47,244 nt of DNA from a virus: positions 1 to 47,244 of IMG/VR virus record IMGVR_UViG_3300033149_005825. The stretch is one strand, 5' to 3'. Each line of letters opens with the position of its first letter. Position 1 is the stretch's first letter. A program made the translations under genes and the position numbers. Shown here piece by piece: positions 3,793 through 40,465 of this stretch. The notes under the pieces were generated by a model. That model searched no databases and was not told where the DNA came from. It was given only the letters and a program-made list of their open reading frames with translations.

Positions 3793-3821
3793 ATTATACA
3801 CAAATTTCCAAAAAGTGTCAA
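3793..3821 (-). promoter_or_regulatory. Sigma70-type early promoter P1
   Basis: On the minus strand a consensus TTGACA (3816-3821) is followed after exactly 17 bases by a consensus TATAAT (3793-3798). The -35 box contains the TGA stop of the upstream HTH gene (ACT TGA CA). The first downstream start is at 3760. Flanking bases ACTTGACACTT and TTGTGTATAAT are shared with the promoter at 31609-31637. Confidence 0.85.
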
Positions 3822-3985
3822 GTCCCCTTGTCCTCACTTTGGATTATCTGATTAACCCGCTGGCGAGATAGATTTAACAGTCTCGCCACATCTGCCTGCC
3901 TCCAACCCTCAATATAAATAAGATATTTAACCAACTTAACTCTAAAGTCATTTAACCTTTTGTCTCTTTCTTCTTTCTTTCCCAT
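3818..3985 (-). CDS. Possible separately translated 55-aa HTH protein
   Basis: In the same frame as the HNH gene, an internal ATG at 3983-3985 follows AAAGGAGG with ideal spacing. Translation from here gives a 55-residue protein with a compact HTH (GWRQADVARLLNLSRQRVNQI), the size of a small phage repressor or activator. It lies between promoters P2 and P1. Whether this internal start is used cannot be decided from sequence alone. One reading is that an HNH gene became fused upstream of an older small regulator. Confidence 0.4.
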   Translation of the reverse strand: MGKKEERDKRLNDFRVKLVKYLIYIEGWRQADVARLLNLSRQRVNQIIQSEDKGT

Positions 3986-4519
3986 CTCAATGCCTCCTTT
4001 TATTTTGTTAAATCTTGGTCGTCTTTTAATATTCCACTTTTTTAGAATGCGATATACCGTTCCAGGAGTAATACCATATTCTTTAGCTAATTCAATTCCA
4101 TTTTCTCCCTTGGTATATCTATTACACATCTCAAGCTGAATTTTTACTCCATTACCTTTTTTATGTTTAACCAGATGACAAGAAGCACAAAGTATTTGAA
4201 CATCGTCCAAAGATGTAGCGGGATATTTTATATGATGAATATGAAGATTTTTAGTGCTTCCACATTCTTCACATTGTTTTTTAAAAGGTAGGAGAAATTT
4301 CGCCAAAGTAGGCTTAGATTCTTTTCCTGTCTTCTTTACATAGTCAAAATACTCATCAAGTGATTTCCACTTTAACCTTCTTCTTCTTGCGTATCTTGGC
4401 AAATGATATTTCTCCATTACCTGTCGAACACGTTCCCTTGTAACCCCAAACATATCGCCTATTTCTTGTAAAGTCTTTCCTTCCTCATAATAAAGCTTTG
4501 CAAGCATCTTTCTATCCAT
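3818..4519 (-). CDS. HNH endonuclease with flanking helix-turn-helix domains, 233 aa
   Basis: Residues 1-40 form a sigma-region-4-like HTH (KTLQEIGDMFGVTRERVRQVME). Residues about 80-118 form a zinc-bound HNH nuclease (CEECG, HIHHIKYP, CASCH). A second HTH follows at about 140-165 (IELAKEYGITPGTVYRILKKW), and a third at the C-terminus (RQADVARLLNLSRQRVNQII). This is a typical free-standing, homing-type HNH layout with DNA-recognition repeats. It is expressed from P2 and its stop lies in P1. The last 55 codons carry their own strong ribosome site and may form a separate protein (see 3818-3985). Targets are unknown; it could also act as a regulator of the two flanking promoters. Confidence 0.8.
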   Translation of the reverse strand: MDRKMLAKLYYEEGKTLQEIGDMFGVTRERVRQVMEKYHLPRYARRRRLKWKSLDEYFDYVKKTGKESKPTLAKFLLPFKKQCEECGSTKNLHIHHIKYPATSLDDVQILCASCHLVKHKKGNGVKIQLEMCNRYTKGENGIELAKEYGITPGTVYRILKKWNIKRRPRFNKIKGGIEMGKKEERDKRLNDFRVKLVKYLIYIEGWRQADVARLLNLSRQRVNQIIQSEDKGT

Positions 4520-5754: not shown

Positions 5755-6906
5755 ATGCTTACAATAAAACTTAAAATTAAAAGACCAACAAGAAATAAAC
5801 TTCATAGTCTTGAAGAATACTGTCAAGAATTCTCTTCTTGTGTTAACTGGTATCTTGAAAAACTGCAGAAAGAGAAAACCACCAGTAGGGTAAAAATTCA
5901 CAAACTTTACTACAAAGAAGCAAGGAATAAATTTAATCTTCCTTCAGCTAACCTACAAGTTGCTCGGGATAAGGCAATAGAGATACAGCGATCATATCTT
6001 CGCAAAAAAGGTAAAAAGTCAAAACCAAAACTCCACAGTTTAATAGGCTGTTTTCGCAAAGACACAATTAAAAGAGGAAATAACGCTATTAGATTAACCT
6101 TAAACCGCAAAAGAATTTGGCTTCCCTTAACAATTCCCGAACGATATAAGAATGAATTTAATCTACCAATAGCTCGTTCCGAAGTTAAAGAAGTCAGAGG
6201 TAAATGGTTTCTATATTTAACTGTCAAAGATATGCCAGAAGCTCAAAGGCAGCCTTCTAATATTTTAGGTGTTGATTTAGGTATAGCGAAGATAGCTACT
6301 GTATCCAATCCAGAAGGTTCAATAAATATGTTCTTTAGAGGAGAACTCATAAGATTTAAAAGAAATTATTTTCTCAAAAAACGAAAAGAATTACAAGAGA
6401 AAAAGGATAAAAAGATATGTAAAAACGCTTGGCGCACACTTAAAAGACTCTCTGGCAAAGAACATAGATGGATAACTGACTTAAATCATAAGATAAGCCG
6501 TGCTATTGTTAATAAAGCTAAAGAAACTAATTCTGCTATTGCCTTAGAAAATCTTTCGGGCATAAGACAAAGAATTAAAGCAATTAAGAAAGTTCGTAGA
6601 ATGCTTCATAATTGGCCTTTCAGACAATTAACAAATTTTATAGAATATAAGGCTCGCTTGGCTGGGATACCGATTGTATCGGTCGATCCTCGGAAAACCT
6701 CAAGAATTTGTCCTAAGTGTGGCAATGAGGAGAAGAGGAATCGGAAGTCCCAGTCCAAGTTTAAATGCTCAAATTGCGGGTATTCGCTCAACGCAGATCT
6801 CATAGGTGCTCGCAATATTGCATTAAGAGCCACTTCTCAGTTGGTATATCCTTCTGAGAATGCGGGGCTTGACACTCCGCTAATGAAGTCTACTTCAACC
6901 TCGTAA
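5755..6906 (+). CDS. tnpB: TnpB RNA-guided nuclease (IS605 OrfB family), 383 aa
   Basis: A full-length TnpB. An N-terminal beta/helical region (residues 1-165) is followed by the split RuvC nuclease: D174 in GVDLGIAKIATVS, E265 in ALENLSGIR and D348 in NADLIGARN. A CxxC...CxxC zinc finger (C319, C322, C338, C341) lies between the last two. All catalytic residues are present. TnpB proteins use an RNA made from the 3' end of their own element to cut target DNA beside a short motif, which favours retention of the element. The gene is on the strand opposite to the surrounding phage genes, has no ribosome site and has a promoter-like sequence ending nine bases upstream. Confidence 0.95.
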   Translation: MLTIKLKIKRPTRNKLHSLEEYCQEFSSCVNWYLEKLQKEKTTSRVKIHKLYYKEARNKFNLPSANLQVARDKAIEIQRSYLRKKGKKSKPKLHSLIGCFRKDTIKRGNNAIRLTLNRKRIWLPLTIPERYKNEFNLPIARSEVKEVRGKWFLYLTVKDMPEAQRQPSNILGVDLGIAKIATVSNPEGSINMFFRGELIRFKRNYFLKKRKELQEKKDKKICKNAWRTLKRLSGKEHRWITDLNHKISRAIVNKAKETNSAIALENLSGIRQRIKAIKKVRRMLHNWPFRQLTNFIEYKARLAGIPIVSVDPRKTSRICPKCGNEEKRNRKSQSKFKCSNCGYSLNADLIGARNIALRATSQLVYPSENAGLDTPLMKSTSTS

Positions 6907-8093: not shown

Positions 8094-8552
8094 CTAAGAG
8101 CGATAGAACCGATGATGCCCAATTTGCTTAATAAATTGCATTTCCTCTGCCCATTTAGGAAGTTTGATATAATCAGCAAAATAGTGCGTTGCCCCGTGGG
8201 TAGGGTCTGGCACTTTGGACGCCAAAACAAGTTCTCCAGCAACAAAACATTCAAGCCAAGTCTCAAGGTCGGAATATTTTAAGGGATAGAGCATCTTTCT
8301 ACGATTCTTATCCCTTTTATTAAAAGATGAGAATTGGTATGGTTTCAGGATTACTTCTCTATGATTCTTGCCATACCAGGAATGTCTGTTAACTCTGTTT
8401 TGTATTACATTCGCCACAGCAAGCTTTCCTTCCCACGGTTCTCCCCGTGCCTCTCCCCATATACACATAGCCATAAGAACAGGCAGGTTTTGCTCTTCGA
8501 TTGGTTTATCTGGATTAGGCAGTATCTTTTGCAGAGGACAGTTTTGCCTCAC
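8094..8552 (-). CDS. SleB-type cell-wall hydrolase (endolysin), 152 aa
   Basis: The sequence matches the Hydrolase_2/SleB family: IWGEARGEPWEGKLAVANVI with the catalytic Glu, then VILKPYQFSSF, and a C-terminal block with HGATHYFADY, W and IGHHRFYRS. The family cleaves peptidoglycan and is common as a phage lysin. No signal peptide is seen, so export would need a holin. The start is GTG 8552, whose TGA-overlapping context (GTGA) couples it to the previous gene. The longer frame to 8612 lies inside that gene. It follows two candidate holin-like genes at 9.4-9.9 kb. Confidence 0.88.
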   Translation of the reverse strand: MRQNCPLQKILPNPDKPIEEQNLPVLMAMCIWGEARGEPWEGKLAVANVIQNRVNRHSWYGKNHREVILKPYQFSSFNKRDKNRRKMLYPLKYSDLETWLECFVAGELVLASKVPDPTHGATHYFADYIKLPKWAEEMQFIKQIGHHRFYRS

Positions 8553-8740
8553 TTTTGGCTCTCCTCCAGCTCTCTTACATCCGCATCCTCCATTGGGTCT
8601 TTCGGCCACCAATCAATCCTACTCAGCGCACATAATACCTCATCTAAGCTATTGTAAATCTTAAAATTCTCATAGTGTGTTGTAGTCCTGACAACAAACT
8701 TTCCTTCATAAAGAGGTGTAATTTCTACCTTAAATTCCAT
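8549..8740 (-). CDS. Hypothetical protein, 63 aa
   Basis: ATG 8740 follows GGGAGGAAAGAAA. The first half is made of strands (VEITPLYEGKFVVRTTT), then a helix and an acidic tail (MEDADVRELEESQ). Its stop overlaps the GTG of the lysin by four bases. Possibly an accessory of lysis by position only. Confidence 0.75.
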   Translation of the reverse strand: MEFKVEITPLYEGKFVVRTTTHYENFKIYNSLDEVLCALSRIDWWPKDPMEDADVRELEESQK

Positions 8741-9620: not shown

Positions 9621-9914
9621 TCACCTCCCTAACTTTCCTCGTTCATAATTTTCTAACAAATCGAACAGTCTCTTGGCGAGCATTATGACTTCCAGTATCT
9701 CGAAGACCGTCCATTTTTTATCAAGTTGAGCTTTTCTTATCGCTTCCGACAGTTCCTCCCACGCCTTCTTTATCTCTCTATTTTTGCCCCATTCCTCAAC
9801 TTTGTCCTTGTTTTTCTCATACCACTTTTTAACTACCTTCAGTTTCCTCACAATTTCTCTTTGGAAGACGCTATATAAAATCCCTGCCAAAAATAGATAT
9901 ATCCACCACATCAT
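9621..9914 (-). CDS. Small single-TM protein, possible holin partner, about 97 aa
   Basis: One N-terminal membrane segment (WWIYLFLAGILYSVF) is followed by long charged helices (VVKKWYEKNKDKVEEW, AIRKAQLDKKWTVFEI). Several starts are clustered (GTG and two ATGs); ATG 9914 is the best spaced after GGAGG. Together with the next gene it forms a two-membrane-protein cassette ahead of the lysin, a common lysis layout. It could also be a tail-fibre-linked membrane protein. Confidence 0.6.
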   Translation of the reverse strand: MMWWIYLFLAGILYSVFQREIVRKLKVVKKWYEKNKDKVEEWGKNREIKKAWEELSEAIRKAQLDKKWTVFEILEVIMLAKRLFDLLENYERGKLGR

Positions 9915-9923
9915 TATCACCTC

Positions 9924-10865
9924 CTATACCTGCATTTCGTCTACATAAGAATAATTCTTTGTCTCAACCTCTTTCGCCTCTTCAATCGCTTCCTCTTTGG
10001 TAACTTCCACCTCTTCTATAACTTCTACAATCTTCTCTTCACCATTTATTACCTTCTTCACATTCCGCTTCACGGCTTTCTTGAACTTCCCCGTTTCAGG
10101 GTCTAAACTAACGCCTGCCTTAAGCTTATATCTTCTTGGACTTTTCTTCACCTCATAGCTTTCAATTTCTCCCGTTTCCTCATCAAAGTAATACCTTTTT
10201 TCTACCTCGGAAGTCTCAGTGACGGGGTCTGTCTTCTCTAACAGCTCTCCGCTCAAGCTTCTGAATTCTCCTCTCAATGGTATGAATAGCTCTAAGGCTT
10301 GTTTTTCTCCGTTGAAAAACAACACCGCACCGCTCAATTTGTTTGGTGGAACTTCTTTTTTTACCAGTTCAATAATGGATTTACGAGTTTGGTAATCGTA
10401 GAGGACGTAAGCTGGGTCGTTGCCTCCGTCGCTGGTAAGTTTTCCCGTGCAGTGAATATCTCCAGAGACGTCTAATGTATATGCTGGGTCTGTTGTCGCT
10501 ATACCAACTTTGCCAGCAGGGTCAATAGTCATTCTATCTGTATTTTGCGCTTCATCCCTAAATGTTAGATTATTACCTACAACCTTTAGCTGCCAATCGC
10601 CTGTGGCGTCTTTGATATCCACCTTAGCCTGGACATCAGAGCTCTCGAAAATAGCAACTCTGTCAGCTTCACCCGAGTTAACCTCCAATCTCACATCTGG
10701 TGATGACACCCCGATACCAACATCGCCATCCGGTGTGACTTTAAATTTACTTGGGTCAGCAATCGAGCCTATCACCTCTTCTATCGCTTGAAAATTTGCC
10801 CTGATGTAATCATCGCTATCCTTGATTAAATCTGTTCCTTTTGGCCGACTCGCGTCCCAAGCCAT
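9924..10865 (-). CDS. Tail fibre / appendage protein, 313 aa
   Basis: The N-terminus (ASRPKGTDLIKDSDDYIR, then NFQAIEEVI) is the helix common to phage tail-appendage proteins. Residues about 40-145 carry the beta-roll repeats typical of fibres: DGDVGIGVSSPDVRLEV, then VGIATTDPAYTLDVSGDI. The C-terminal third is glutamate/lysine-rich and may be a trimerising stalk or tail. It follows the tip protein at 11.7-16 kb and probably makes contact with the host surface. The start at 10865 has AGGAGGTAATAAAA. Confidence 0.8.
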   Translation of the reverse strand: MAWDASRPKGTDLIKDSDDYIRANFQAIEEVIGSIADPSKFKVTPDGDVGIGVSSPDVRLEVNSGEADRVAIFESSDVQAKVDIKDATGDWQLKVVGNNLTFRDEAQNTDRMTIDPAGKVGIATTDPAYTLDVSGDIHCTGKLTSDGGNDPAYVLYDYQTRKSIIELVKKEVPPNKLSGAVLFFNGEKQALELFIPLRGEFRSLSGELLEKTDPVTETSEVEKRYYFDEETGEIESYEVKKSPRRYKLKAGVSLDPETGKFKKAVKRNVKKVINGEEKIVEVIEEVEVTKEEAIEEAKEVETKNYSYVDEMQV

Positions 10866-28938: not shown

Positions 28939-29207
28939 TTATTTTCACCTCGCAATTCTTTTATAAGTTCCTTCTTCTTCAAGCCCATCCAGTTTATACC
29001 CTTCTCACTGGCAATCTTCCTTAACTGCTGAATAGTCTTTCCCTCGAAATTCTCAATCTCCTTAACCTCAATATAGGGGAAGGCAGACATAGCCTCTGCC
29101 AGTCCCCTATCATTAGTCTCAAAACCCCCTCCCTTTTTAAGGAAATAATATCTTCCCTTATAAGGGAGTTTCCTTGTATTCCCGTGATTGATTATTTTGT
29201 ATCTCAT
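28935..29207 (-). CDS. Small head-region protein with SAP/HeH-like C-terminus, 90 aa
   Basis: Residues 1-50 form a small beta unit (PYKGRYYFLKKGGGFETND). Residues 55-88 (GKTIQQLRKIASEKGINWMG, LKKKELIKEL) look like a Rho-N/HeH/SAP helix-extension-helix, which often binds nucleic acid. It starts at the TGATG overlap with the capsid gene. A capsid-associated or head-fibre role is inferred. Confidence 0.72.
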   Translation of the reverse strand: MRYKIINHGNTRKLPYKGRYYFLKKGGGFETNDRGLAEAMSAFPYIEVKEIENFEGKTIQQLRKIASEKGINWMGLKKKELIKELRGENK

Positions 29208-30292
29208 CAGGCTGCCGCCTTAAAACCTAATCCTACCTTCAAGTTCTTGGTCAATACCACAGCATTGATATTCTCAATCGCCAAATCTACACGAAGACTG
29301 TAGAAGAAATATGTAGCCTCGTCCGCAGCTTCTCGCTGAGATTCCATCTTAATATCCCTGTGAATTCCTATTATAAGATTATCCTTATGAGTTAGGAGGA
29401 CATCGGTTCTATCTCCTTCCATTCCATCACGATAGTCTGCATAGTCCTCAGCAAGAGTCGTAGGCATAAGAGGACAACTAACAAGAGGAACAGTTCCATA
29501 CTGGGCTGGCCCTTTGCCCAGAATCGCATTGTCGCCCAGAACAGTAGACCTCGATGCCAGAGCTTCAATGTAATCCTGAACTACTTGGTCAGAACAGAAA
29601 AATCTCAAATTAGTTAATCCACCCTTCTTATACTTGGAAGGAAGCGTTCTGAGCATCTTACCAAACTTAAATTCCCAGTCATAATTTGCACCGCCCTGCT
29701 CCGCAATTGTCTTTTCGGTGTTAAATTCAAAATCGGAATTTGCATCTAAGATATGAGCACCTCCAGATACATCATTGTAATATTTATCCCCAGAATTAAC
29801 ACCATTCATAATTCTATATCTCCAGCCATCCCAAAGACCTCTGATGTCATCTGCACTAAAGCCTCCTGCTGTATCACCAATCCAGTAAGCTTCATCCAGT
29901 TCATTGGCTATCTTGGCAGCAATCATTCTCATCAGATGGTCAGTGAAAGCCTGTCCTTCGATATTGTCCTCCAGATCATCGTCATAGATTACTATGCAAC
30001 CTCTTACCTTTTTGGCCGTCAGAGTTATAAGATTATGCGATAACTCTTTTTTATAGTCAGAAGATGAAAAAGTTGCAGCTGGTTTCAGGAATCTTCCCGT
30101 TCCCAACCCTAAAGCTCTAATGTTCTTGGATTCTTTAGCCATCCTCACAATTCGAGCATTATTTTTCAGAACTGACTCATCAACCATGTAATCAATAAAT
30201 CTGTCTGCTTCCTCAGCTTCCAGAGTTATTGTGGGAAGAGAGACCATCTTTTGTATTCGTTTCTTGCTCAAAAGCTCTTTGTTAGTTAACAA
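29207..30292 (-). CDS. Major capsid protein, 361 aa
   Basis: The TTG start at 30292 follows GGAGGTG. HK97-fold features are an N-terminal helical arm (residues 1-40), a central region with SHNLITLTAKKVRGCIVIYDD and DLEDNIEGQAFTDHLMRMIA, a helix with AAKIANELDEAYWIGD and a C-terminal domain (AVVLTKNLKVGLGF). The order scaffold then capsid is as expected. This length is normal for HK97-type capsid proteins. The N-terminal arm would be cut or not depending on the XkdF-like protease upstream. Confidence 0.88.
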   Translation of the reverse strand: MLTNKELLSKKRIQKMVSLPTITLEAEEADRFIDYMVDESVLKNNARIVRMAKESKNIRALGLGTGRFLKPAATFSSSDYKKELSHNLITLTAKKVRGCIVIYDDDLEDNIEGQAFTDHLMRMIAAKIANELDEAYWIGDTAGGFSADDIRGLWDGWRYRIMNGVNSGDKYYNDVSGGAHILDANSDFEFNTEKTIAEQGGANYDWEFKFGKMLRTLPSKYKKGGLTNLRFFCSDQVVQDYIEALASRSTVLGDNAILGKGPAQYGTVPLVSCPLMPTTLAEDYADYRDGMEGDRTDVLLTHKDNLIIGIHRDIKMESQREAADEATYFFYSLRVDLAIENINAVVLTKNLKVGLGFKAAA

Positions 30293-30314: not shown

Positions 30315-31172
30315 CTACTCTTCGTCTCCATCTAAAAGTTTACCTAAAGTCCACTTGAACTCTTTTTTCTCGGTTCTTTCCTTTCCATCTCCATCTATGC
30401 TCTTCTTTATCCCCCTCGCCTTTTCTAACCTTTTTATTCGTTCCTCCAGCTCTCCAAGAACCTCAAGCTGTTCTAAATTCTTTTTGATTTTCTCAATTTC
30501 CTCCTTATAGTTCTCATCTTTAGTCATAGCCTCTTTTCTGACCTTCACCTGATTCTCTTCAGGTAGGAGATCATTAAGAGCTTTGATTACAGAGATGATC
30601 TTCTCAATAGTGGATTTTGAGAGCTTTGCTCCAACTTTCTCAATTCCTTCTTTCTTAGCAGGGTAACCATATCCATATCCGTATCCAGCATACTTAGCCA
30701 GAACTCCTATTGCTTTCTTGAGATCATCAGGAAAATCTTCCTTATACTTAGAGATAAGCTTAAGTGCTCCCTTGATAGCATTTAATGCCTTATCTGAGAG
30801 CTTCTCGGCTTTCTTGAAGTCTTTCTCATTGATCTCTTCACCCAAATATTCCTCAAGAAGTTTTTTGAGCTCTTCCATCTGCTTTTTCACCTCCAATTTT
30901 TTAGTCTCAGAGCCTATCATTTTCGCTCCACACTTGGGGCATTTGATCTCAGCGCAAGGGACTGATTTCCCTTCGCCTATTCTTTCATGCTCAACTGCAT
31001 ATCCACATTCTGGGCATACACAGTATCTTGCTCCTCCAATCCCCTGTCGTGGACCTCCAACTCCAGCTCCTCGCCCCAAATCCTTCTTTACAATTAAAAA
31101 TTTTCTTCGATTGGCCGGCGCGTCAACTAAGCTAACTTCATCAATTTCAATATCTTTAAGTTTTCTTGCCAC
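30315..31172 (-). CDS. Scaffold-like protein / detached C-terminal half of XkdF-like protease, 285 aa
   Basis: The GTG start at 31172 follows AAGGAG. The first 28 residues (LKDIEIDEVSLVDAPANRR, then KFLIVKK) are the segment that normally ends the XkdF-type prohead protease domain. A zinc ribbon follows (CVCPECG...CAEIKCPKCG, residues 51-84), then a lysine/glutamate-rich coiled-coil body that resembles a scaffold, a stretch of repeated Gly-Tyr (YAGYGYGYGYP) and a short C-terminus. The protease proper is at the C-terminus of the upstream 1423-residue protein, separated by a small transcription unit. It is unusual that a zinc ribbon interrupts such a protein. Confidence 0.75.
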   Translation of the reverse strand: MARKLKDIEIDEVSLVDAPANRRKFLIVKKDLGRGAGVGGPRQGIGGARYCVCPECGYAVEHERIGEGKSVPCAEIKCPKCGAKMIGSETKKLEVKKQMEELKKLLEEYLGEEINEKDFKKAEKLSDKALNAIKGALKLISKYKEDFPDDLKKAIGVLAKYAGYGYGYGYPAKKEGIEKVGAKLSKSTIEKIISVIKALNDLLPEENQVKVRKEAMTKDENYKEEIEKIKKNLEQLEVLGELEERIKRLEKARGIKKSIDGDGKERTEKKEFKWTLGKLLDGDEE

Positions 31173-31326: not shown

Positions 31327-31527
31327 CTATTCATAATTAATTACTAAATCTCCCATGCAGGGATCCTTAAAATATTCCACACTTTCTTTTATATCTAATC
31401 CAAATAAAACTTTGAAATAAATTTGATTCTTCCAAAAGGGATTATCAATTCGAATTTTATTTAAATTCTTTCTTATAATCTTCGGTAGATTTACATAATC
31501 CCAAGAAGTAAGCCTTTCTTCTTTCAT
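31327..31527 (-). CDS. Putative moron cargo protein, 66 aa
   Basis: ATG 31527 follows TTAGGAGGATAAA. The gene has its own promoter (31609-31637) and its own terminator (31207-31258), which is the textbook layout of a moron, a cargo gene dropped into a late operon. The protein reads MKEERLTSWDYVNLPKIIRK with a basic middle, aromatic residues (PFWKNQIYFKVLFGLD) and an acidic C-terminus. No family is recognised. It separates the protease half from the segment that normally follows it. A function during lysogeny or in host exclusion is possible but not shown. Confidence 0.75.
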   Translation of the reverse strand: MKEERLTSWDYVNLPKIIRKNLNKIRIDNPFWKNQIYFKVLFGLDIKESVEYFKDPCMGDLVINYE

Positions 31528-31608: not shown

Positions 31609-31637
31609 ATTATACACAACTAATTTTCAAGTGTCAA
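31609..31637 (-). promoter_or_regulatory. Sigma70-type promoter P3 of the moron unit
   Basis: TTGACA (31632-31637), a 17-base spacer and TATAAT (31609-31614), both perfect. The -35 overlaps the TGA stop of the 1423-residue gene. It shares ACTTGACACTT and TTGTGTATAAT with P1 at 3.8 kb. A leader of about 75 bases precedes the ATG. Confidence 0.85.
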
Positions 31638-34600
31638 GTGCTGGCTGCAGCTCTTCCAGCCATAGAATATCCCGTAATTTCTCCAGCCTTAATCCTCTTC
31701 CAAATGTCTTCATCAAGAATTCTTGCAGTCAAAATCCAACTCCCCTTTTTAACCTTCTGACCTCTAATCATTAAGTCTTGAGGGGCTACATAACTCTCTA
31801 ATACTTTTGCTGCTACATAATCACCCTTATGATTTATTTTAAACTTCTGAACTTCTTCCATAAATTGATATGCTGCTTTTCTTATCTCCTCTTCTGTGGT
31901 AAAATCTCCCTGGGAATCTACTTCATTAGGTTCATAAACGATTCCCATCACAATGTGCTCATCCTCTTTCTTAGATATATCAAAAATAGGGACAAACTTC
32001 TCAAACTTATTTTGATTAAGTAAATTTTCCGATTGGAGAACTTCCTTCACTTTCTGTTTCCAGTAGCCAATGTCAAAGCCTATTGGTAAAAACTCCTCAG
32101 CAATTTTTTCTATAATTTCTTCATCTGATAAATCTTCCAAACGATATTCTTGGTATGCTTGCAAAATTATATCTTTATCTGATTGCTTTATTATCTCCTC
32201 TCTCTTTTTATCCCACTCTTTAATCTTATCCTCATTAGGTGGCTTTGTCTTCATATATTTTCTCGCTCTTCTGTAACATTCCCAATAAGGAGTCTTATAC
32301 TCTTTATCTCCTATTTTAGGAGGAATAACTGGGAAGTAGATAGAGCGAAGGGCATCAACAATTCGAGCATAGTAATGAAGGATGTCATCCATAGTCCAAT
32401 CCTTCCAAGCTCCTTTCTTGCCATAGTTAGAATACGCCTGATTACCTAAATAACGGAGGTCCGCAAATAATTCTTTATAATGTTTAGCGGGATTTTTTAT
32501 GTCTTCATCAAAACCTTCTTGTCTAAATTCTTCGAGATGAAGCTTTTCCACTTTCTCCTTTAACTTACTAATCATCCAAACTCTTGGTCCTTTCTTTCCT
32601 GCTTCGGTAATCGGAACATAAGCTATAAGATAAGTCCCTTCTGGGATTAATTTGTTACCTTTAAATTCAAACTTCTTTGCGTGATCGTCTTGAGGTTCTA
32701 TTGCTTTCCAGGTAAATTCATCAAGAATAAGCATTGCACCGTATTTATTCTTGGTTGCTCCCACAGTTCCTGGAGCCATGATTTCTATCTTATTTTTTCC
32801 CACTTCCATCCACGACACTGGGCCCATAACTGTCTCAACCTCAGGCTCTTCCTTTCTTGGAACTTTCCAGCCAAATCTTAATTTGCCTCCTTCTGCCAAC
32901 TTCTTTAATTTATCAAGCCCCGTAAGATTTCCTATCATTATCTCTCCGCCTTCAAAATGGTCATCACCTTTCTTCACCATTCGCAGGTCAATGTGTGCAC
33001 CTTGTTCTCCAATTGCACCTTTCAATAGCATCTTTAATTTAGTAGGATTATATCTGGCAGCAACAGCTTCACGAGATACTTTCTTCAATGCCTCAATCTT
33101 CTCTTCTTCTATGCCCATTATGTGAAGCTGAAGAACCGACCTACCAACATCACCGACTTTGTAAGTTATATTTCCTTCTACTCTTTTTTGTAGGATGTTA
33201 GCTCGCTCTGCAATCCCAATTATCTGATTAGCAAAATAAGGCTGTTTTCTATCTTTATCTACATCGATGACTCGCGGGCCCAACCAATCCAAAATCTTTC
33301 CCTTGGGAATAATTTCCTCTACTCCTACTGTAAGAACATCGCCCTCTTCAGCTTTTATTTCAGTATTATAAGTCTTACCCAAATCAATGTATTTCTTCCC
33401 CCTAAATTCAGTTAAATTCTCAAAATCAGAATCTCCAGGTAACACTCCACATCGGTAATTGTAACCCCCAGCTTTGTTAGGAATTCTCTCTAAAACTATC
33501 ACCTTAATTTCAGCCTCCACTTTCAACTTTGCTACATCATCCCACCTACCATCTAATGGCCAAATGCCTTTTGGGTCTTTTATCATTATACCTTCTGATT
33601 GAGGAAGTTTGGCAAATTCTTTAAACCATTTTTCCAAATCACTACGATTCTTGACCTGAACTGTTTTAGTTATATCAAAATTCTTTGACCCTTTAAGGTA
33701 TTTACTAAAGAATTGCTCCAGTAATTTTCTTCTCTCGCTAAATGGCTTATTGTGAATGTCCTCTTTCCAGTAGGGTAAGTCAAATACTGTGCAAACTATC
33801 ACATCATTCTCCTGAAGCTCAGGCTTATCTGCCATTAAAGTCATAAGTTTTATTCTCGGCAGTGGTTTACCATCTCTTTCAATACCCAAACTACAATCCA
33901 AAATAAAATCATCGGGTATCTTTTCAATAGTATCTTTAAGAGAAGGATAATACTTTGTTCTATCTTTCATACCATCAGTAATAATTTTATACTTATCTCC
34001 TTGTTTCGATATGACCACTCGGAAACCATTTAGCTTTGGTTCTACAATTAATGGCAATCTACCTTTACACCAATCCCAAATTTGTTCTACGCTAAACGCT
34101 TCGGTAAGCCCTGCCATCGTAGGTTTTGGGAATTGGCTAAGATGTGTAAATGGAGTTAATTTTTTTGCTTTCTCAATTTTGCTCACATCAACAATTGCAA
34201 TAGCAGTGTTATCTCCATTTTCCACCTTCTTAACTTTCGCTTTATCAAACAGCTTCCTAAAATCATCAATTGTTTTATATGTTTGCTTATGAGTGATGTC
34301 CATTCGCTCACCCAACGGCACAATAAATATAACTCTCTCTTTGGCTACTCTCTTTGCTTCCTTGATTAACTTTTCAGGATTTTTTAGATGCTCCAAGATG
34401 TGCAAGCCAATAACCGTGTCAAATGAATCATTTTCATAAGGTAAAGCTTCCTTCTCTAAATCTACCTTCTTGACTTTCAACCTCTTCTTTTTTGCCATCG
34501 CTAAAGCAATATCGTTGTTATCTACTCCTTCAACTTCATAACCAGAACATTCAAGAGCTTTCTCCACTCGCCCAGTTCCACATCCTAATGAAAGTATTTT

Positions 34601-35905
34601 CTTACCTTTTATGTTCTTGCTCATCTCTAAATAGTCAGCCATAAAGTCTGCCTTCCACTCATCAAGTCCTTCGAAGTAATCTTTCTCACTTTTAGCAAGA
34701 TAAATGTTTTGTTTTTTAAGAGGGAAGTTAGAGATGAGAAGTTCAACACGAGTTAATTTAGGATTAAATTCATCTATTAGTTTTCCTGTTTTAACCCTTT
34801 TAATTTCAAAATCAGCAAATGTTTTTCTAATCTCTTCAGTATCCGGCAAAGATAAAATAAATCTTCCTTTAAGAGACTTAACAAATTGATTTAATTCTTC
34901 TACATCAATCTGCAAGTCTTCAAAATTCGCTGTATTAGGATAGGGAGGAGCAAGATAATAAAATGTATTTTTATCATCATAATCTTTAAGTTTTTTATAA
35001 TCCCTGTTATAAATAATGACTTTACTTAGCCGATTTTTTAGACTAATAAGCCTATTAACCCCATCCCACTTCTGGTTCAGTCTCAATGGATTTACCTTAT
35101 CACCTCTACTTGAAAACGAACCCCATTTTAGCATTATAAATCTATAAAATTTATCTATCTCGTTAATTGGTTTACTTTCTTTTAATCTTGCAAACTTGGA
35201 TTCCGTCAATGTCCAATCTTTTCTTCTTAGTTGACTTAGCTTTTCATCAGTTAAGTTTTTAATAAACCTGTAAGCAAATGCAATCTCTGGGTCTAAATCA
35301 TTTATTATCTCAACCTCGCTTGGCTCTTTAGCAAAAAATATTGCTCCTCCCCCAACAAAAGGCTCAACATAAACCTTATGTTCTGGAATATAACTTACAA
35401 TAGTTTTAGCTAAATAGCGTTTGCCACCAGGCGAGCCGAAGGCTGGTCGAATTCCTTTCTCTATCTCATCAACCTTCCCATAATCTTCCTTAACTTTTAC
35501 CCGCTTAGTCTCGTCCTTTGCTCTGAGCACCAAATCAAAGAGTGGTAGATAGTCAGAATGTGGACCTTTAGGAGCATATATAAAATGGCAATCTTTATGG
35601 ATATGTTTTTGTATTAACCGAGCAAGTTTTAATTCCATTCCCTCATCCCGATTATCCTCGTCTTCTCTTATAACTACGTCCACGTCCTTAGCAGTTTTGG
35701 GAGATTTTACTAATGAGCCTGCTATCGAAATATAGTCAGGAACAATAGCTATATCTCCCAAAGAACTTACATCTATCCCATACATAGCTTTTCGGAACAA
35801 TGCTCTGTCTAAATCCGTATCTGAGTTAATTCTTAAATTCCTCTTTTTCATCTCAGCTTTAAGTATCTTGTATTTTTCTAAAAGTTCTTCTTTCAATAAA
35901 TTCAT
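31634..35905 (-). CDS. Giant multi-enzyme protein ending in XkdF-like prohead protease, 1423 aa
   Basis: Domains in order: (1) residues 30-135, nucleotidyltransferase-like (SIAGSLVKSPKTAKDVDVVI with the GS...DxD pattern). (2) 140-395, Dam-type adenine methylase (FGSPGGKRYL; EPFVGGGAIFF; motif IV is APPY at 319-322, not DPPY). (3) 405-575, class I SAM methyltransferase (ILSLGCGTGRVEKAL, then DTVIGLHILEHL). (4) 600-890, ATP-dependent-ligase-like (K624 in VEPKLNGFR; ILDCSL at 668-673 where LDGE is usual; EGIMIKDP; KLKVE). (5) 910-1115, LigD-phosphoesterase-like (LQLHIMG, HIDLRMV, LRFGWKVP). (6) 1120-1245, an unrecognised conserved region (ELFADLRYLGNQAYS). (7) 1300-1423, XkdF-like protease (H1359 in INHKGD; S1414 in TGYSMAG). 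The gene lies between MuF-like and scaffold genes. It could be a polyprotein cut by its own protease, with the enzymes packaged for injection. Confidence 0.85.
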   Translation of the reverse strand: MNLLKEELLEKYKILKAEMKKRNLRINSDTDLDRALFRKAMYGIDVSSLGDIAIVPDYISIAGSLVKSPKTAKDVDVVIREDEDNRDEGMELKLARLIQKHIHKDCHFIYAPKGPHSDYLPLFDLVLRAKDETKRVKVKEDYGKVDEIEKGIRPAFGSPGGKRYLAKTIVSYIPEHKVYVEPFVGGGAIFFAKEPSEVEIINDLDPEIAFAYRFIKNLTDEKLSQLRRKDWTLTESKFARLKESKPINEIDKFYRFIMLKWGSFSSRGDKVNPLRLNQKWDGVNRLISLKNRLSKVIIYNRDYKKLKDYDDKNTFYYLAPPYPNTANFEDLQIDVEELNQFVKSLKGRFILSLPDTEEIRKTFADFEIKRVKTGKLIDEFNPKLTRVELLISNFPLKKQNIYLAKSEKDYFEGLDEWKADFMADYLEMSKNIKGKKILSLGCGTGRVEKALECSGYEVEGVDNNDIALAMAKKKRLKVKKVDLEKEALPYENDSFDTVIGLHILEHLKNPEKLIKEAKRVAKERVIFIVPLGERMDITHKQTYKTIDDFRKLFDKAKVKKVENGDNTAIAIVDVSKIEKAKKLTPFTHLSQFPKPTMAGLTEAFSVEQIWDWCKGRLPLIVEPKLNGFRVVISKQGDKYKIITDGMKDRTKYYPSLKDTIEKIPDDFILDCSLGIERDGKPLPRIKLMTLMADKPELQENDVIVCTVFDLPYWKEDIHNKPFSERRKLLEQFFSKYLKGSKNFDITKTVQVKNRSDLEKWFKEFAKLPQSEGIMIKDPKGIWPLDGRWDDVAKLKVEAEIKVIVLERIPNKAGGYNYRCGVLPGDSDFENLTEFRGKKYIDLGKTYNTEIKAEEGDVLTVGVEEIIPKGKILDWLGPRVIDVDKDRKQPYFANQIIGIAERANILQKRVEGNITYKVGDVGRSVLQLHIMGIEEEKIEALKKVSREAVAARYNPTKLKMLLKGAIGEQGAHIDLRMVKKGDDHFEGGEIMIGNLTGLDKLKKLAEGGKLRFGWKVPRKEEPEVETVMGPVSWMEVGKNKIEIMAPGTVGATKNKYGAMLILDEFTWKAIEPQDDHAKKFEFKGNKLIPEGTYLIAYVPITEAGKKGPRVWMISKLKEKVEKLHLEEFRQEGFDEDIKNPAKHYKELFADLRYLGNQAYSNYGKKGAWKDWTMDDILHYYARIVDALRSIYFPVIPPKIGDKEYKTPYWECYRRARKYMKTKPPNEDKIKEWDKKREEIIKQSDKDIILQAYQEYRLEDLSDEEIIEKIAEEFLPIGFDIGYWKQKVKEVLQSENLLNQNKFEKFVPIFDISKKEDEHIVMGIVYEPNEVDSQGDFTTEEEIRKAAYQFMEEVQKFKINHKGDYVAAKVLESYVAPQDLMIRGQKVKKGSWILTARILDEDIWKRIKAGEITGYSMAGRAAAST

Positions 35906-35911
35906 TTGTAA

Positions 35912-36214
35912 TCACCCAAATTTTAATTGATTATCTTTTAATACTTGATATAAACCATTCCCCAACCTCTTTACTGTATCCTCATCCAGTTTTTGATTGT
36001 TATACTCATAATCTATACAGTGCAAAATCTCGTGGCATAAAGTATTATTCAATTGTGCTTGCGGAATAGGATTGCCTGTAGTATCAACTCTCGCAAGCCT
36101 TATCTCTTTCTGGAAATAATCTGATTGTCCAAGAACTAATGTTTCCATAAATGTATAAGGATATATCACCCTATAAATATGTCCTGCTATTTTTATTTCT
36201 TTGGGTATTTTCAA
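35912..36214 (-). CDS. Minimal HExxH metallopeptidase-like protein, 100 aa
   Basis: The TTG start at 36214 follows AAGGAG. The core LNNTLCHEILHCIDYEYNN contains HExxH (HEILH) followed by an acidic helix, as in small phage-associated zinc peptidases related to SprT/ImmA types. The N-terminal half is a beta sheet (GHIYRVIYPYTF). At 100 residues it is close to the minimum for this fold. It lies immediately upstream of the giant protein and could process head proteins or a host regulator. Confidence 0.75.
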   Translation of the reverse strand: MKIPKEIKIAGHIYRVIYPYTFMETLVLGQSDYFQKEIRLARVDTTGNPIPQAQLNNTLCHEILHCIDYEYNNQKLDEDTVKRLGNGLYQVLKDNQLKFG

Positions 36215-36341
36215 ATTTATTCTCCTTTTGCTTTTTTCTGTTTAGTTTTTCCCAAATTTGAAGCATTCTAAGCTTCAGTGAATATAGCTCACTATTCTTA
36301 GCCTTCTTTATATTTTTTTCGTTAATGTCTTCAATTCTCAT
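36171..36341 (-). CDS. Small helical protein, 56 aa
   Basis: ATG 36341 follows GATGGAGTAAA. It overlaps the peptidase start by 44 bases in another frame. It reads MRIEDINEKNIKKAKNSELY, then LKLRMLQIWEKLNRKKQKEN, a pattern of a short conserved phage helix seen near nucleotidyltransferase and MuF genes. Role unknown. Confidence 0.65.
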   Translation of the reverse strand: MRIEDINEKNIKKAKNSELYSLKLRMLQIWEKLNRKKQKENKFENTQRNKNSRTYL

Positions 36342-36380: not shown

Positions 36381-37289
36381 TTATGCTGCAGCTACACAAC
36401 ACCTGCATAAGGGGTGATATAACGGAAGCTTGTCCCTGTTGGAAATAAGATGGACCTCACCATCATGCTCCATACAGATAGGACAGGTCTTCTCGTCCCG
36501 AGTTACTATAACTTCCACCTTTTTTACCCCTGCGTCTTCATATCCCTGAAGGCTGCCCTCTATAAGAGCATTTCCAGACTCAGTTCTTGCTATCATATCA
36601 GCCCGTCTTCTATGCATTCTTCTTGCATACACATCTACTCGTCTGTCAATCTCTCTTTGGGAAAGCTCTGGTCGATTAACTATCAACCACTCCTCATAAT
36701 TTACCACTGCCATCATTTGACGAGAGTTCAATCCTATCAGCGGTCTTATCTCTTTTGCAATTTGCCTCACAGATTTACCTTTCTTAATTCCATCTCTTAT
36801 AATTAGTTTTATCCCTTTTCTCGTCTCATCGGTTATCTCTTTAACCATTTTAGCACAATGTTTTTCTGCCCAAGCCACACTCTTAGAATTAAGCACATCG
36901 AAGCTTCCCTCTATTCCCGCTATCAAATAAGCTTCGTTGGCTCCGTCTCCCAGAATCTTCAGCATTGCAGGCTTTAGAATTTCCTTCCCATTTTCTTGAA
37001 TCCATTCCCAATCAGTCAGCTTGGTAGCTATATCCAGAGCTCTATCTTTTCTTATAAAAGTATTGAATCCTAACTTCGCTCTTTTCTCAATATACTTTTT
37101 AGTTAAGTCCCCAATAATCTTCCGCCTCATATTCTCAAGCCACTCATTCACTTTAGGACGGAGATACTTTGCAGCTTTATCCATAGCTCTTAGCATTCGC
37201 TGAGCTATCCGACCTCGGCGGTCTACCTTTTCAAAAAATACATTAATCGCCTCATCAATCTTCTTAATCTGCTCTACTGTCAACTTCAT
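36381..37289 (-). CDS. MuF-like head morphogenesis protein, 302 aa
   Basis: The C-terminal signature of the Mu F / SPP1 gp7 family is clear: RADMIARTESGNALIEGSLQ, then VTRDEKTCPICMEHDGEVHL and YHPLCRC, with three cysteines. The N-terminal 200 residues are helical. The family is a minor capsid protein that binds the portal and is ejected or needed at the vertex. It follows the portal gene, as usual. The start overlaps the previous gene by 26 bases. Confidence 0.88.
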   Translation of the reverse strand: MKLTVEQIKKIDEAINVFFEKVDRRGRIAQRMLRAMDKAAKYLRPKVNEWLENMRRKIIGDLTKKYIEKRAKLGFNTFIRKDRALDIATKLTDWEWIQENGKEILKPAMLKILGDGANEAYLIAGIEGSFDVLNSKSVAWAEKHCAKMVKEITDETRKGIKLIIRDGIKKGKSVRQIAKEIRPLIGLNSRQMMAVVNYEEWLIVNRPELSQREIDRRVDVYARRMHRRRADMIARTESGNALIEGSLQGYEDAGVKKVEVIVTRDEKTCPICMEHDGEVHLISNRDKLPLYHPLCRCCVAAA

Positions 37290-37689
37290 CTTTTAATTCC
37301 CCCGATATCTCCTGATAACTCTCCTCGAATATCTCTTTATCACAAGTATATAATTCTCCCTTTATTCCTTCTACTAAATAATCTCCCGCTTTAGCAGTAA
37401 AAGTTCCCTCTAAGGTTTTTACTTGAAAAGGCTCGTTTATCTGAATAGCTTTGATTGGAATGGGTTTTTTAACATAAAATTTATATCCTTCCCTTGGCAT
37501 CTCTCTGATTGTCTTCATTTTTATAGCCTCCTCAATCTCTCCAACCTCAAACATCTCATCACATTCATCGCAATCATACCATACATCCTGAAACGGATTT
37601 TCAGCTCTATCATAGGCCTTAGCAGTGCATCGATATAGATAGGTCTTCTTACACTTAGGACATAATATATCTGTTTTTACTCTTCTCAT
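37264..37689 (-). CDS. Phage protein with zinc ribbon and PGDYLV-like domain, 141 aa
   Basis: An N-terminal zinc ribbon has CPKCKK at 10-15 and CDECDEMF at 40-47. Residues 70-130 carry the small beta domain PIPIKAIQINEPFQVKTLEG and KAGDYLVEGIKGELYTCDKE, which occurs in many phages as a separate small protein next to the portal. Start at 37689 behind AAGGAGG. Probably a head-associated accessory; function unknown. Confidence 0.78.
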   Translation of the reverse strand: MRRVKTDILCPKCKKTYLYRCTAKAYDRAENPFQDVWYDCDECDEMFEVGEIEEAIKMKTIREMPREGYKFYVKKPIPIKAIQINEPFQVKTLEGTFTAKAGDYLVEGIKGELYTCDKEIFEESYQEISGELKDEVDSRAD

Positions 37690-39278
37690 TATAAACCTCC
37701 TTCCTTTTTTCTTTTCTCTTCTTCCAGTGCTTCTTCTAATAAGTCTTTTTCCTCTTTAGATAATTCTTCGCCTCTAATTTTTTTCCCTATAATTATTTTT
37801 AACATCTGCTTTTTAATCAGCTCTTCTTTATCTTTGTCTTCCATTTCAGCTTCCCTTATTTTCTTAATCTCCTTACTTAACCTTTCCTGCTCCGCCATAA
37901 ACCTTAACTGCTCCCTATCCCTTTTCTCCAGTTCAGCTTCGCCTATTTCAGTTAAACTACCACTAATATAGAACGAATCGCCCCCCGGATAAGGCTCTCC
38001 TATTCCCAATAGACTCCTTGCCTCATTCGGGGTCATAACTCCTCGCTCAATTAAGGAATTGTATCTACTCACCTCAGCATCAATATCCCTTATGTCTATG
38101 TCATTAAATTTGAATTCATACGAATTGCAATCCAATCCTTTTTCAAATATCATATTCATAATATCCTCTAAGTCCTGTTGGAGAGGCTCCACTACTGACT
38201 GAATGTATGTTCTTGTGGCTTCCTGTGCTACATTCCCTGACAGCTTCCCGACCACCGCTATCCCCAATCGATAGGGCGGCATCGAATAAGCAGCAAGGAT
38301 GTCTTCTCGTAATATTTGCTGATATAATCTAAAGCTTCCCTCCTTTACCTCTACAGAAAGGGGCTCAAACTTGGCCGTTCCTCCTTCCGGGGTCTGAAGA
38401 ACCAAAGTCTTGTGAGCGTTTTCAGTCCCCTTTATCTCTGTATTCAAAAAATTCTGTATTATCTTTGCAGAATCCTCTTCCCATTCTCCCTCTAAAGTTA
38501 CAAAATAATCGGGCACGCCATAATTCTGGAAGAAGGATAAGTTATAGTCCCGAATACCTATAAGACTTAACACAGAACCTACAGCAGGAAGTATATTAGG
38601 AACTCCATAGTATTCATTTTTGGGATAGTGAGTCTTATAAAAAATTATCTCATTTGCCCTTGTTTCCAAATCAAACTGTCCTTCTTTCCCAGTCTCGCTG
38701 CTAAAATTCCTCTCTTCCCCAAATTTTTTAAACCAGACCTTCTTTAATCCTCTCTTCTGGCAAAACCTTATCTTATCCGAATGAGCCCAGAGTGAGTAAG
38801 CGGGAATATGATAAAGCCCATCTACTTCTCCCTTACCATTTCTGGTCACTTCAATCCCGAAATAGCCAATTACTCCCCAATCTATCAAAACAGACTTAAA
38901 TAATCTACGAAGGGGTTCCTCAAGATTAGAAATGAACTCATCAATCTTATTCTTTTCATTCTCATTCTCTTTGCCCTCTTTCGGAACCAATTTCCACCCA
39001 AGACCTGCAACGTCCACTGCTATCTGGTTAACTGTCGCAAAAAATATCGGATTGGATTCATACAGGGTGAGAAATGAATCTGGATCATAGGGTCTGGATA
39101 CCAAGCCTTCCGCCTCGGCCCACTGCCTTTCTTTTTTGAGTTGCTTACTTCTTTTCTCGATACTGTATTTCTCCAGGGTGGGGTAGGGGAGAATCGCCCC
39201 TTCCTTAGTCGTTATGAAAACTTTGCCCTTTTTCTTCGGCCCCACTATCATTTGCTCTCTTTTTTTAAATAGTCTCAT
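37689..39278 (-). CDS. Portal protein, 529 aa
   Basis: A PBSX-type phage portal: N-terminal helical part, the wing and stem with SNPIFFATVNQIAVDVAGLG, TNEIIFYKTHYPKNEYYGVP (written here as EIIFYKTHYPKNEYYGVP), YLPVVGSVLSLIG-like AVGSVLSLIGIRDY, and a C-terminal acidic-basic coiled coil (about 440-529). The dodecameric portal sits at one vertex and guides DNA. Order large terminase, portal, MuF-like is standard. The ATG overlaps the terminase stop (ATGA). Confidence 0.92.
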   Translation of the reverse strand: MRLFKKREQMIVGPKKKGKVFITTKEGAILPYPTLEKYSIEKRSKQLKKERQWAEAEGLVSRPYDPDSFLTLYESNPIFFATVNQIAVDVAGLGWKLVPKEGKENENEKNKIDEFISNLEEPLRRLFKSVLIDWGVIGYFGIEVTRNGKGEVDGLYHIPAYSLWAHSDKIRFCQKRGLKKVWFKKFGEERNFSSETGKEGQFDLETRANEIIFYKTHYPKNEYYGVPNILPAVGSVLSLIGIRDYNLSFFQNYGVPDYFVTLEGEWEEDSAKIIQNFLNTEIKGTENAHKTLVLQTPEGGTAKFEPLSVEVKEGSFRLYQQILREDILAAYSMPPYRLGIAVVGKLSGNVAQEATRTYIQSVVEPLQQDLEDIMNMIFEKGLDCNSYEFKFNDIDIRDIDAEVSRYNSLIERGVMTPNEARSLLGIGEPYPGGDSFYISGSLTEIGEAELEKRDREQLRFMAEQERLSKEIKKIREAEMEDKDKEELIKKQMLKIIIGKKIRGEELSKEEKDLLEEALEEEKRKKEGGL

Positions 39279-40465
39279 CCCACAAACACCTTCCCCTTTC
39301 TTCTTTTTGCTTTCTTACCGAGATGCGTATAGATTGCCATCCGCATTGCATCCATCAGGTGATCTCGAAATTTCACGGGCTCTTCAAGGACATTCCCGTC
39401 TTTATCTTCCTTGTATTTATAACCGTTTATCTCTTTAATGAGGTTCACGTTACTTTTTAGAATATGCAATTTTTGTCTTTTCACAAAATCAATGCCATCT
39501 CTCACGTTTTTTTCAGCAGGATGAACATTAAATCCCGCTCTTGCTATTTCCTCTATCCTCGCTGGCTCCGCAGAGTCAGCGTAAACATACCTATTTTTAT
39601 TGGAAATAAGCTCCTTCAACTGCTCTATCAGGTCTTCATTGGTAAGGTGCGTCTGATATAGAAGTTCTCTTAGATATATTTCTTTATCCTTTATCCCTAC
39701 TTCCAAAAGAGCCGAAGGGTTGTTGTATCCAAAGTCAAGTCCGTAGATGACCTCTTCAAAATTGTCAGGCCATCCATCTATAAGGTCGTAATTCGTATAG
39801 ATGATGTTTTTCAGAACACCCCATTCGCCAAGTGCATAGACCTGATAATAAGTCTCGTCCTGGTCTTTAAGGGCTTCAAGCTCTTTTATATAATCCTCGC
39901 TTAAGTATCTGAGATTGTCTCTATAATTAGTTTTTAATATCGCCACATCGCTATTTTGACTCTCAAAAAACCTTTTATAAATCCAAGATAGCTTGCTGAC
40001 AGGATTAAAAGTAAGGTAGATTTGATTTTTCCCTTCTGTATGCCGTCTGAGTCTCAAGTTAAGTTGGGTAAAATCTTCTTCTGTAAACTCAGTAGCCTCT
40101 TCCATCCAGATATAATTCGGTTCAAAGCTCTTCACCTTCTCGGGGTCATCTAATCCTCTAAAAATCATTTCATTGGTATTCACGCTCAAGCGCAACTCTG
40201 ACTTGTTTAACTCAAAAGGTAGCTCATATTTTTTCAACAACTCCAAAATTAACTTATACGCTGTAATTCGGAGTGATGGCAAAGTCTTTCTGATTACAAG
40301 AAATTCCTTATCCTTCTCCGTATAGAGCTTCTTAATTAGATACTGAGCAGTGCTATGCGATTTTCCACCTCCCGCGCCTCCCGCTAATACGATAAATCTT
40401 TTATCCGTGTTTTTCTCAAAGAACTCCCAATATTTTTTATTAAACTCTGCCTTTATCACCTTCAC
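39275..40465 (-). CDS. Terminase large subunit, 396 aa
   Basis: ATPase motifs: Walker A GGAGGGKS at residues 29-36 and Walker B YIWMEEATEF. The C-terminal RuvC-like nuclease has YGLDFGYNNPSALLEV, YADSAEPARIEEIA and a final acidic part (FRDHLMDAMRMAIY). It cuts and pumps genome DNA into the procapsid with the small subunit. The start is GTG 40465, overlapping the small subunit gene by 26 bases. The family type is Terminase_3/6. Confidence 0.95.
   Translation of the reverse strand: MKVIKAEFNKKYWEFFEKNTDKRFIVLAGGAGGGKSHSTAQYLIKKLYTEKDKEFLVIRKTLPSLRITAYKLILELLKKYELPFELNKSELRLSVNTNEMIFRGLDDPEKVKSFEPNYIWMEEATEFTEEDFTQLNLRLRRHTEGKNQIYLTFNPVSKLSWIYKRFFESQNSDVAILKTNYRDNLRYLSEDYIKELEALKDQDETYYQVYALGEWGVLKNIIYTNYDLIDGWPDNFEEVIYGLDFGYNNPSALLEVGIKDKEIYLRELLYQTHLTNEDLIEQLKELISNKNRYVYADSAEPARIEEIARAGFNVHPAEKNVRDGIDFVKRQKLHILKSNVNLIKEINGYKYKEDKDGNVLEEPVKFRDHLMDAMRMAIYTHLGKKAKRRKGKVFVG

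Follow-up and report, generated by a model that had tools for sequence, protein, structure and literature searches.

The virus record IMGVR_UViG_3300033149_005825, analyzed here over a window of 47,244 nucleotides, encodes a polyprotein in which DNA-modifying and end-sealing enzyme domains are joined to a capsid-maturation protease. We put at about 50% the probability that this polyprotein, labeled P0001, belongs to the virion polyvalent proteins of the type "cargo plus C-terminal capsid protease" and works by the mechanism proposed below. The recurrence of a family of such proteins among head genes suggests that the enzymes are packed into the particle and injected with the DNA. An earlier note on this DNA had reached a similar view; its observation of the fusion is confirmed and its interpretation is supported in part, with packaging, self-cleavage, and injection as the steps that we infer.

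The P0001 frame runs on the minus strand from an ATG at 35905 down to 31634 with zero internal stops, and the plus strand over the same interval contains stops throughout. The earlier note had given the coordinates and the uninterrupted frame of 1423 residues exactly and had left the strand unstated. From the N terminus, P0001 consists of a nucleotidyltransferase (NTase), a D12 methylase fold, a class I methyltransferase (MT11), a ligase (LIG) with an OB domain, a LigD-type 3'-phosphoesterase (PE), a helical domain X, and an XkdF protease (PROT). The NTase and the PE have no Pfam match of their own and were recognized through comparison with the family. Every domain region previously named is supported, whether by Pfam, by family profiles, or by the NTase model, and the ligase and methyltransferase regions match known families. 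The gene also lies among head genes, as had been claimed: the same-strand order of transcription is TerS, TerL, portal, a small gene, MuF, a SprT-like open reading frame (ORF), the polyprotein, an ORF of 66 amino acids (aa), a scaffold-like gene, and the major capsid protein (MCP). The domain set and its head-gene setting are far beyond chance. An Rfam search gave zero matches.

A scan for close relatives with the whole of P0001 as query retrieved nothing, and it was an alignment of the ligase and PE regions that opened the family instead. Viral contigs were scanned with ligase alignments, genome contigs were added, and an ORF was counted as a member if its ligase was accompanied by one or more of NTase, PE, and protease. 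This recovered 68 distinct ORFs, almost all viral, whose loci bear L-numbers. There are around thirty arrangements in total, the commonest being NTase-LIG-PE and NTase-LIG-PE-PROT, and optional D12, MT11, ASCH, metallo-β-lactamase (MBL), and X domains occupy varying places around the NTase/ligase/PE core. The nearest relatives of P0001 (L034, L035, L043, and L045) have the order NTase-MT11-LIG-PE-PROT. Long single ORFs recur many times and reach 2306 aa. In all 26 distinct ORFs that carry the protease, no other domain follows it, and it ends 2–29 residues from the C terminus. Between L035 and L037, the ratio of nonsynonymous to synonymous substitution (dN/dS) is about 0.09 for the ligase, 0.08 for the PE, 0.04 for the protease, and 0.18–0.19 for the NTase and methyltransferase, so that every core domain is under purifying selection.

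The linkage to head genes extends to the homologues, with same-strand head genes at 73 of the 75 family loci. TerL, portal, or MuF lies upstream at 56 of the 61 loci with enough upstream sequence, and scaffold or MCP lies downstream at 41 of 58. Using head-gene models built from family members, none of 21 stand-alone ligases from the same searches was found beside a head gene. Split forms (L037, L068, and L070) occupy the same slot, which is what joint use of the activities would predict. At L004/L050, L079, L082, and L084/L086, the protease opens the following ORF (806–846 aa), and in L084 this following ORF matches a head maturation protease family in another region as well. L054 was rejected as a natural split of the protease because it differs by a single base from L056, which is 99.97% identical, and the difference may be a sequencing error.

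The same picture emerges from the protease side, where the 80 XkdF homologues nearest to the family were sampled (not a random sample of XkdF). At least 100 residues lie N-terminal to the protease in 75 of these and at least 300 in 28, and a long part follows the protease in only two. The same protease also carries GNAT acetyltransferases (L170 and L177) and a 2H phosphoesterase (L223) as cargo. Fusions of cargo to a C-terminal XkdF protease are widespread among environmental viruses. The earlier statement that this is not a normal phage arrangement was therefore too strong, and the concept itself is published (PMC5512222).

The assignment of a capsid-maturation protease to the C terminus of P0001 holds. 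The Peptidase_S78_2 match scores 120 bits against a cut-off of 24, the domain matches the head maturation protease phrog_3017 (4e-46), and it is 46% identical to the protease of Lactococcus phage 28201. H1359 and S1414 are conserved; family-wide, the His is kept in 29/29 and the Ser in 31/31 sequences. The scaffold-like protein begins with IDEVSLVDAPANRRKFL, the motif that precedes the protease in the phrog_3017 profile and in ordinary XkdF proteins, and its homologues sit immediately downstream of the polyprotein in the relatives. Judged by these alignments, the motif-protease-scaffold protein is split here, with the protease as the end of the cargo chain and the motif and scaffold as the next gene. 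The EVSLVDxPAN motif and the scaffold-like part thus lie outside P0001 and, since short XkdF versions exist, are nonessential. Although the PE of L034 is 79% identical to that of P0001, its protease (9849–10190) is only 33% identical, compared with 69% for L035 and L037. This contrast indicates that recombination exchanges the protease end as a unit.

The G and DxD of the NTase motif (G..D.D) are practically invariant across the family, the two Asp residues being kept in 63/64 and 65/65 sequences. Its AlphaFold model is confident (pLDDT 88.8), and the top fold matches are uniformly of the MntA/MNT type but below significance (E 0.13, probability 0.87). In the PE, the catalytic-type residues are H971-x-D973-x-R975, and the family keeps the His in 67/67, the Asp in 67/67, and the Arg in 65/67 sequences. 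Pfam LigD_N matches 10 of 27 members of the viral PE family. The best PDB sequence matches of the PE are weak (0.002–0.004), with the HxDxR motif aligned, and its AlphaFold model has a pLDDT of 85.6. In profile comparisons, the viral PE matched archaeal cellular PE domains (98.3%, 9e-14), and the PE of the P0001 subclade matched the other viral PE (99.6%, 1e-22), with seven unrelated domain profiles as controls at no more than 0.3%. The subclade compared directly with cellular PE gave no significance, so that the assignment for P0001 is transitive. Domain X, which follows the PE, is common to P0001, L004/L050, L079, L084/L086, L098, L100, and L213/L214.

Two further observations concern the PE of the relatives. 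In many of them the PE profile matches again, in part, downstream of the full domain (e.g. L002, aa 799–860, and L057, aa 1430–1493). The ORF L050:6108-12833 (the same as L004) contains at about aa 1367–1707 an intein-like insert with a LAGLIDADG match, which splits the PE exactly at the HxDxR motif (RGKSV / SHHLDLR).

The D12 domain has the expected fold and lacks the DPPY signature of D12 adenine methylases. Motif I is FVGGG at 183, and motif IV is LAPPY at 318–322, where Ala-319 replaces the usual Asp; this Asp is kept in 14 of 15 sequences, P0001 being the sole exception. The replacement makes activity doubtful, and the domain is probably catalytically impaired, although APPY, which depends on a single codon of a single sequence, could reflect a sequencing error. 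The D12 domain is missing from the closest relatives (L034–L037, L043, and L045) and is additional in P0001, where it lies between NTase and MT11. The class I methyltransferase is conserved within the P0001 subclade.

The ligase nucleophile is K624, and this Lys is kept in 81 of 82 sequences family-wide; DNA ligases in the PDB match the domain down to 4e-28. Compared with the KxDGxR and Glu motifs of ligases, P0001 retains the Lys, the EG of motif IV (SEG), and the Lys of motif V (KLK), but motif I is KLNGFR and S672 takes the place of the motif III Glu. P0001 and its nearest relatives share KLN(G/A/S)FR, and all lack the motif III Glu; because the whole subclade carries these changes, sequencing errors were rejected as their source. 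The motif I Asp and motif III Glu matter for catalysis in the ligase superfamily, so the ligase activity of P0001 may be reduced or changed. The claim of a DNA-modifying and end-sealing set therefore stands for the domains, but activity cannot be assumed for the window virus. With the active sites of the ligase and D12 domains altered, activity is most likely to persist in the PE, the NTase, and the second methyltransferase.

In the proposed mechanism, the polyprotein would be made late, alongside the head proteins. Its protease end would fill the slot of the ordinary head-maturation protease and so draw the polyprotein into the procapsid with the scaffold. At maturation the protease would cut the scaffold and its own linkers, and the released enzymes would be retained inside the head until ejection carried them, together with the DNA, into the cell. 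In the cell, the PE would tidy 3' ends, the NTase would add nucleotides or AMP, the ligase would seal breaks, and the methyltransferases would mark DNA or another target; the incoming DNA ends would be repaired or protected. Many relatives carry, N-terminal to the NTase and in the polyprotein frame, a helical leader (ELxxLHLRLHQLW-like). Its homologue in the window is detached, cut off by the SprT-like ORF. This leader helix could be a docking signal. We also entertain, more tentatively, a wider reading in which many tailed viruses, including those of methane-oxidizing and methanogenic archaea, inject a virion-borne kit resembling non-homologous end joining (NHEJ), carried on an exchangeable cargo platform as a capsid-cut polyprotein. 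Such a kit would comprise NTase, ligase, and 3'-phosphoesterase, often with methylases and an MBL nuclease, and would be cut by its own C-terminal protease.

Several points weigh against virion cargo. There is no protease in the same ORF in 42 of the 68 distinct relatives, some of them cut by contig ends, and protease fusion is therefore not required for the enzyme set. The comparison with stand-alone ligases is an imperfect control, since models made from family members may miss unrelated head genes. The altered motifs of P0001 (APPY in D12; N for D in motif I and S for E in motif III of the ligase) belong here, as does a Foldseek search with the PE plus X model, which gave no significant match. 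That the protease is always last could follow from gene order alone, if a cargo gene lay upstream and was then fused. The serious rival builds on such fusion: the enzymes would act in the infected cell, in replication, repair, and methylation, and would have been joined through gene adjacency, with the protease freeing itself and alone entering the head. NTase, ligase, PE, and protease are indeed on separate adjacent ORFs in some relatives, the order TerL-portal-MuF-cargo-protease-scaffold-MCP would ease fusion, and the strong divergence of the protease between close relatives points to modular recombination. We nevertheless consider this rival somewhat unlikely, because the cargo ORFs lie within the head module at 73 of 75 loci, even when split, whereas stand-alone viral ligases do not, because long single ORFs recur so often, and because late head-gene expression would be poor timing for early repair enzymes.

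The cargo might instead serve RNA (tRNA) repair or counter-defense, acting on RNA ends cut by host anticodon nucleases or on nucleotide signals and not on viral DNA ends. MBL and ASCH domains in many relatives, the 2H phosphoesterase on the same protease, a weak RNA_ligase match in L008 (3e-5), the "RNA ligase" phrog_14859 that ends in the same protease, and the resemblance of the NTase model to MNT antitoxins of HEPN/MNT pairs all fit this idea. Yet the ligase fits DNA ligases far better (4e-23 to 5e-29 in Pfam, besides the PDB matches), its PE partner is a domain of DNA ligase D, and D12 methylases have DNA as their substrate, which makes this reading improbable. It is more improbable still that the enzymes are dead folds that build or fill the procapsid and are then degraded by the protease. 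The altered catalytic residues of the D12 and ligase domains of P0001 would suit such an internal core, but the catalytic residues of PE and NTase and the ligase Lys are nearly invariant family-wide, and a separate scaffold-like gene lies downstream.

Polyvalent proteins were described by Iyer, Burroughs, Anand, de Souza, and Aravind in 2017 (PMC5512222), who proposed that they are packaged and that C-terminal assemblin-like peptidases are among the agents that process them during virion assembly. Like P0001, they are long multi-enzyme polypeptides encoded with portal-terminase head genes, in phages and conjugative elements, and their repertoire includes Pol-β NTase, DNA adenine methyltransferase, GNAT, and 2H domains. 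Their assemblin-like peptidase is always C-terminal (PMC5512222). P0001 and its family share three of the defining properties: several unrelated enzymatic domains, a portal-terminase structural-gene setting, and a peptidase that is C-terminal wherever it is present. In contrast, the core here is an NTase, an ATP-dependent ligase, and a LigD-type PE, with MBL, ASCH, and class I methyltransferase options, and the main text of PMC5512222 uses "ligase" only for RNA ligases. The polyvalent idea is thus already published, whereas the ligase/PE core with a head protease, in dozens of viruses and with free exchange of domains, is undescribed in the literature found. Our search found no description of an NTase-ligase-PE core joined to a head protease; subscription papers mostly lay outside this search, and the absence is no proof.

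A close annotated counterpart is AJP62006 of ANMV-1 (KP703175), a virus of uncultured archaea. This single ORF encodes NTase, ligase, OB, and PE; the portal gene immediately precedes it, and it is followed by a long protein whose C-terminal end resembles MuF. AJP62006 differs in having neither methyltransferases nor a protease in the ORF, and it is annotated only as "ATP-dependent DNA ligase". Bacterial LigD (PE, POL, and LIG) likewise unites a PE, an ATP-dependent ligase, and a nucleotidyl-adding domain in one chain, but the NTase of P0001 is of the minimal Pol-β type rather than a POL domain, and the chain is fused to a capsid protease. No Pfam match to the LigD POL domain or to Ku was found in P0001 or in the scanned window genes, which are part of the window ORFs. 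NHEJ is known in phage infection from the Ku-expressing phages Omega and Corndog, which use the LigD of the host (PMC7719229).

XkdF/S78_2 proteases such as Lactococcus phage 28201 gp33, psiM100 ORF12, and phrog_3017 are the same protease, encoded at the same position, with portal/head morphogenesis genes on one side and capsid genes on the other. In phrog_3017, the EVSLVDxPAN motif, the protease, and a scaffold-like part are in one protein, whereas P0001 has the protease on the cargo end. The same XkdF domain and gene position are found in the "DNA methyltransferase/prohead protease" of Rhizobium phage RHph_TM16 (210 aa) and the "DNA methyltransferase" of Pseudomonas phage NoPa (154 aa). These proteins are too short for a methyltransferase besides the protease, and the labels are probably carry-over; for the records opened, the idea that isolated phages already have methyltransferase-protease fusions was rejected on this ground of size (154–210 aa).

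If the cargo is packed and cut, the XkdF C-terminal end would serve naturally as a cargo tag that brings along the protease for its release. Infection by dozens of uncultured viruses would then begin with the delivery of end-repair enzymes into the cell, suggesting a way in which linear viral genomes could be protected or closed ahead of any gene expression. Archaeal viruses would gain a class of polyvalent proteins thought to be scarce there; polyvalent proteins are rare in archaea, and examples of more than 1000 aa are almost all bacterial (PMC5512222). The question of what phage heads inject would also become testable by proteomics on one gene family.

The coordinates of P0001, its domains, and its neighbors are collected in Table 1.

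Table 1. Positions of the polyprotein, its domains, and neighboring head genes in the window
Feature	Position	Strand	Evidence
Polyvalent cargo-protease polyprotein P0001, 1423 aa	31634..35905	minus	Single open frame, domain matches
Minimal Pol-β-type nucleotidyltransferase (aa 49-132), GS...DxD motif	35510..35761	minus	Family hidden Markov model (HMM)
D12-class N6-adenine methylase domain (aa 156-395)	34721..35440	minus	Pfam MethyltransfD12 1.8e-19, aa 159-373
Class I S-adenosylmethionine-dependent methyltransferase (aa 405-554)	34244..34693	minus	Pfam Methyltransf_11 8.8e-16, aa 438-528
ATP-dependent ligase adenylation domain + OB (aa 606-899)	33209..34090	minus	Pfam DNA_ligase_A_M 4.1e-23, aa 618-795
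LigD-type 3'-phosphoesterase PE (aa about 903-1125)	32531..33199	minus	HxDxR motif, family profiles
Helical domain X (aa 1117-1244)	32174..32557	minus	phmmer 154 bits to L004
XkdF/Peptidase_S78_2 head-maturation protease (aa 1310-1420)	31646..31978	minus	Pfam PF14550 6.1e-35
Scaffold-like protein	30315..31172	minus	Matches phrog_3017 positions 1-30; starts with EVSLVDAPANRRKFL motif
Major capsid protein	29207..30292	minus	phrog_1623 2.8e-65; tblastn to annotated major capsid proteins
SprT-like small ORF, 100 aa, between leader and polyprotein	35912..36214	minus	SprT-like 0.0025 (below Pfam cut-off); phrog_1233 3e-17
Detached leader, 56-aa ORF	36171..36341	minus	Leader HMM 57 bits
MuF-like minor head protein	36381..37289	minus	Phage_Mu_F 2.7e-13
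Portal protein	37689..39278	minus	phrog_12 4.6e-54
Terminase large subunit	39275..40465	minus	phrog_3717 1e-58

Between the polyprotein and the scaffold gene lies a moron-like cassette (31637–31207, minus strand). It consists of a perfect σ70 consensus promoter (TTGACA-17-TATAAT) overlapping the stop codon of the polyprotein, the 66-aa ORF (31327–31527), and a very strong terminator-like hairpin at about 31261–31209 (-32.7 kcal/mol, z -6.5).

With regard to the host, the best-scoring named relatives of the window portal are from the methanogen viruses Drs3, PhiF3, and psiM2/100. Core genes of the family are also present on contigs binned with Methanophagales and Methanosarcinales, and the members on archaea-binned contigs are 570–930 aa long. 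The window encodes a SleB-type cell wall hydrolase (8094–8612, minus strand; PF07486, 2.9e-20), which together with the perfect σ70 promoter points instead to a bacterial host with peptidoglycan.

Elsewhere in the window, a 233-aa protein (3818–4519, minus strand) has an HNH match flanked by helix-turn-helix stretches that resemble σ70 region 4. The longest ORF of the plus strand (5755–6906) is a TnpB/IS605 OrfB-like gene with a Cas12f-like TNB domain (1.1e-22).

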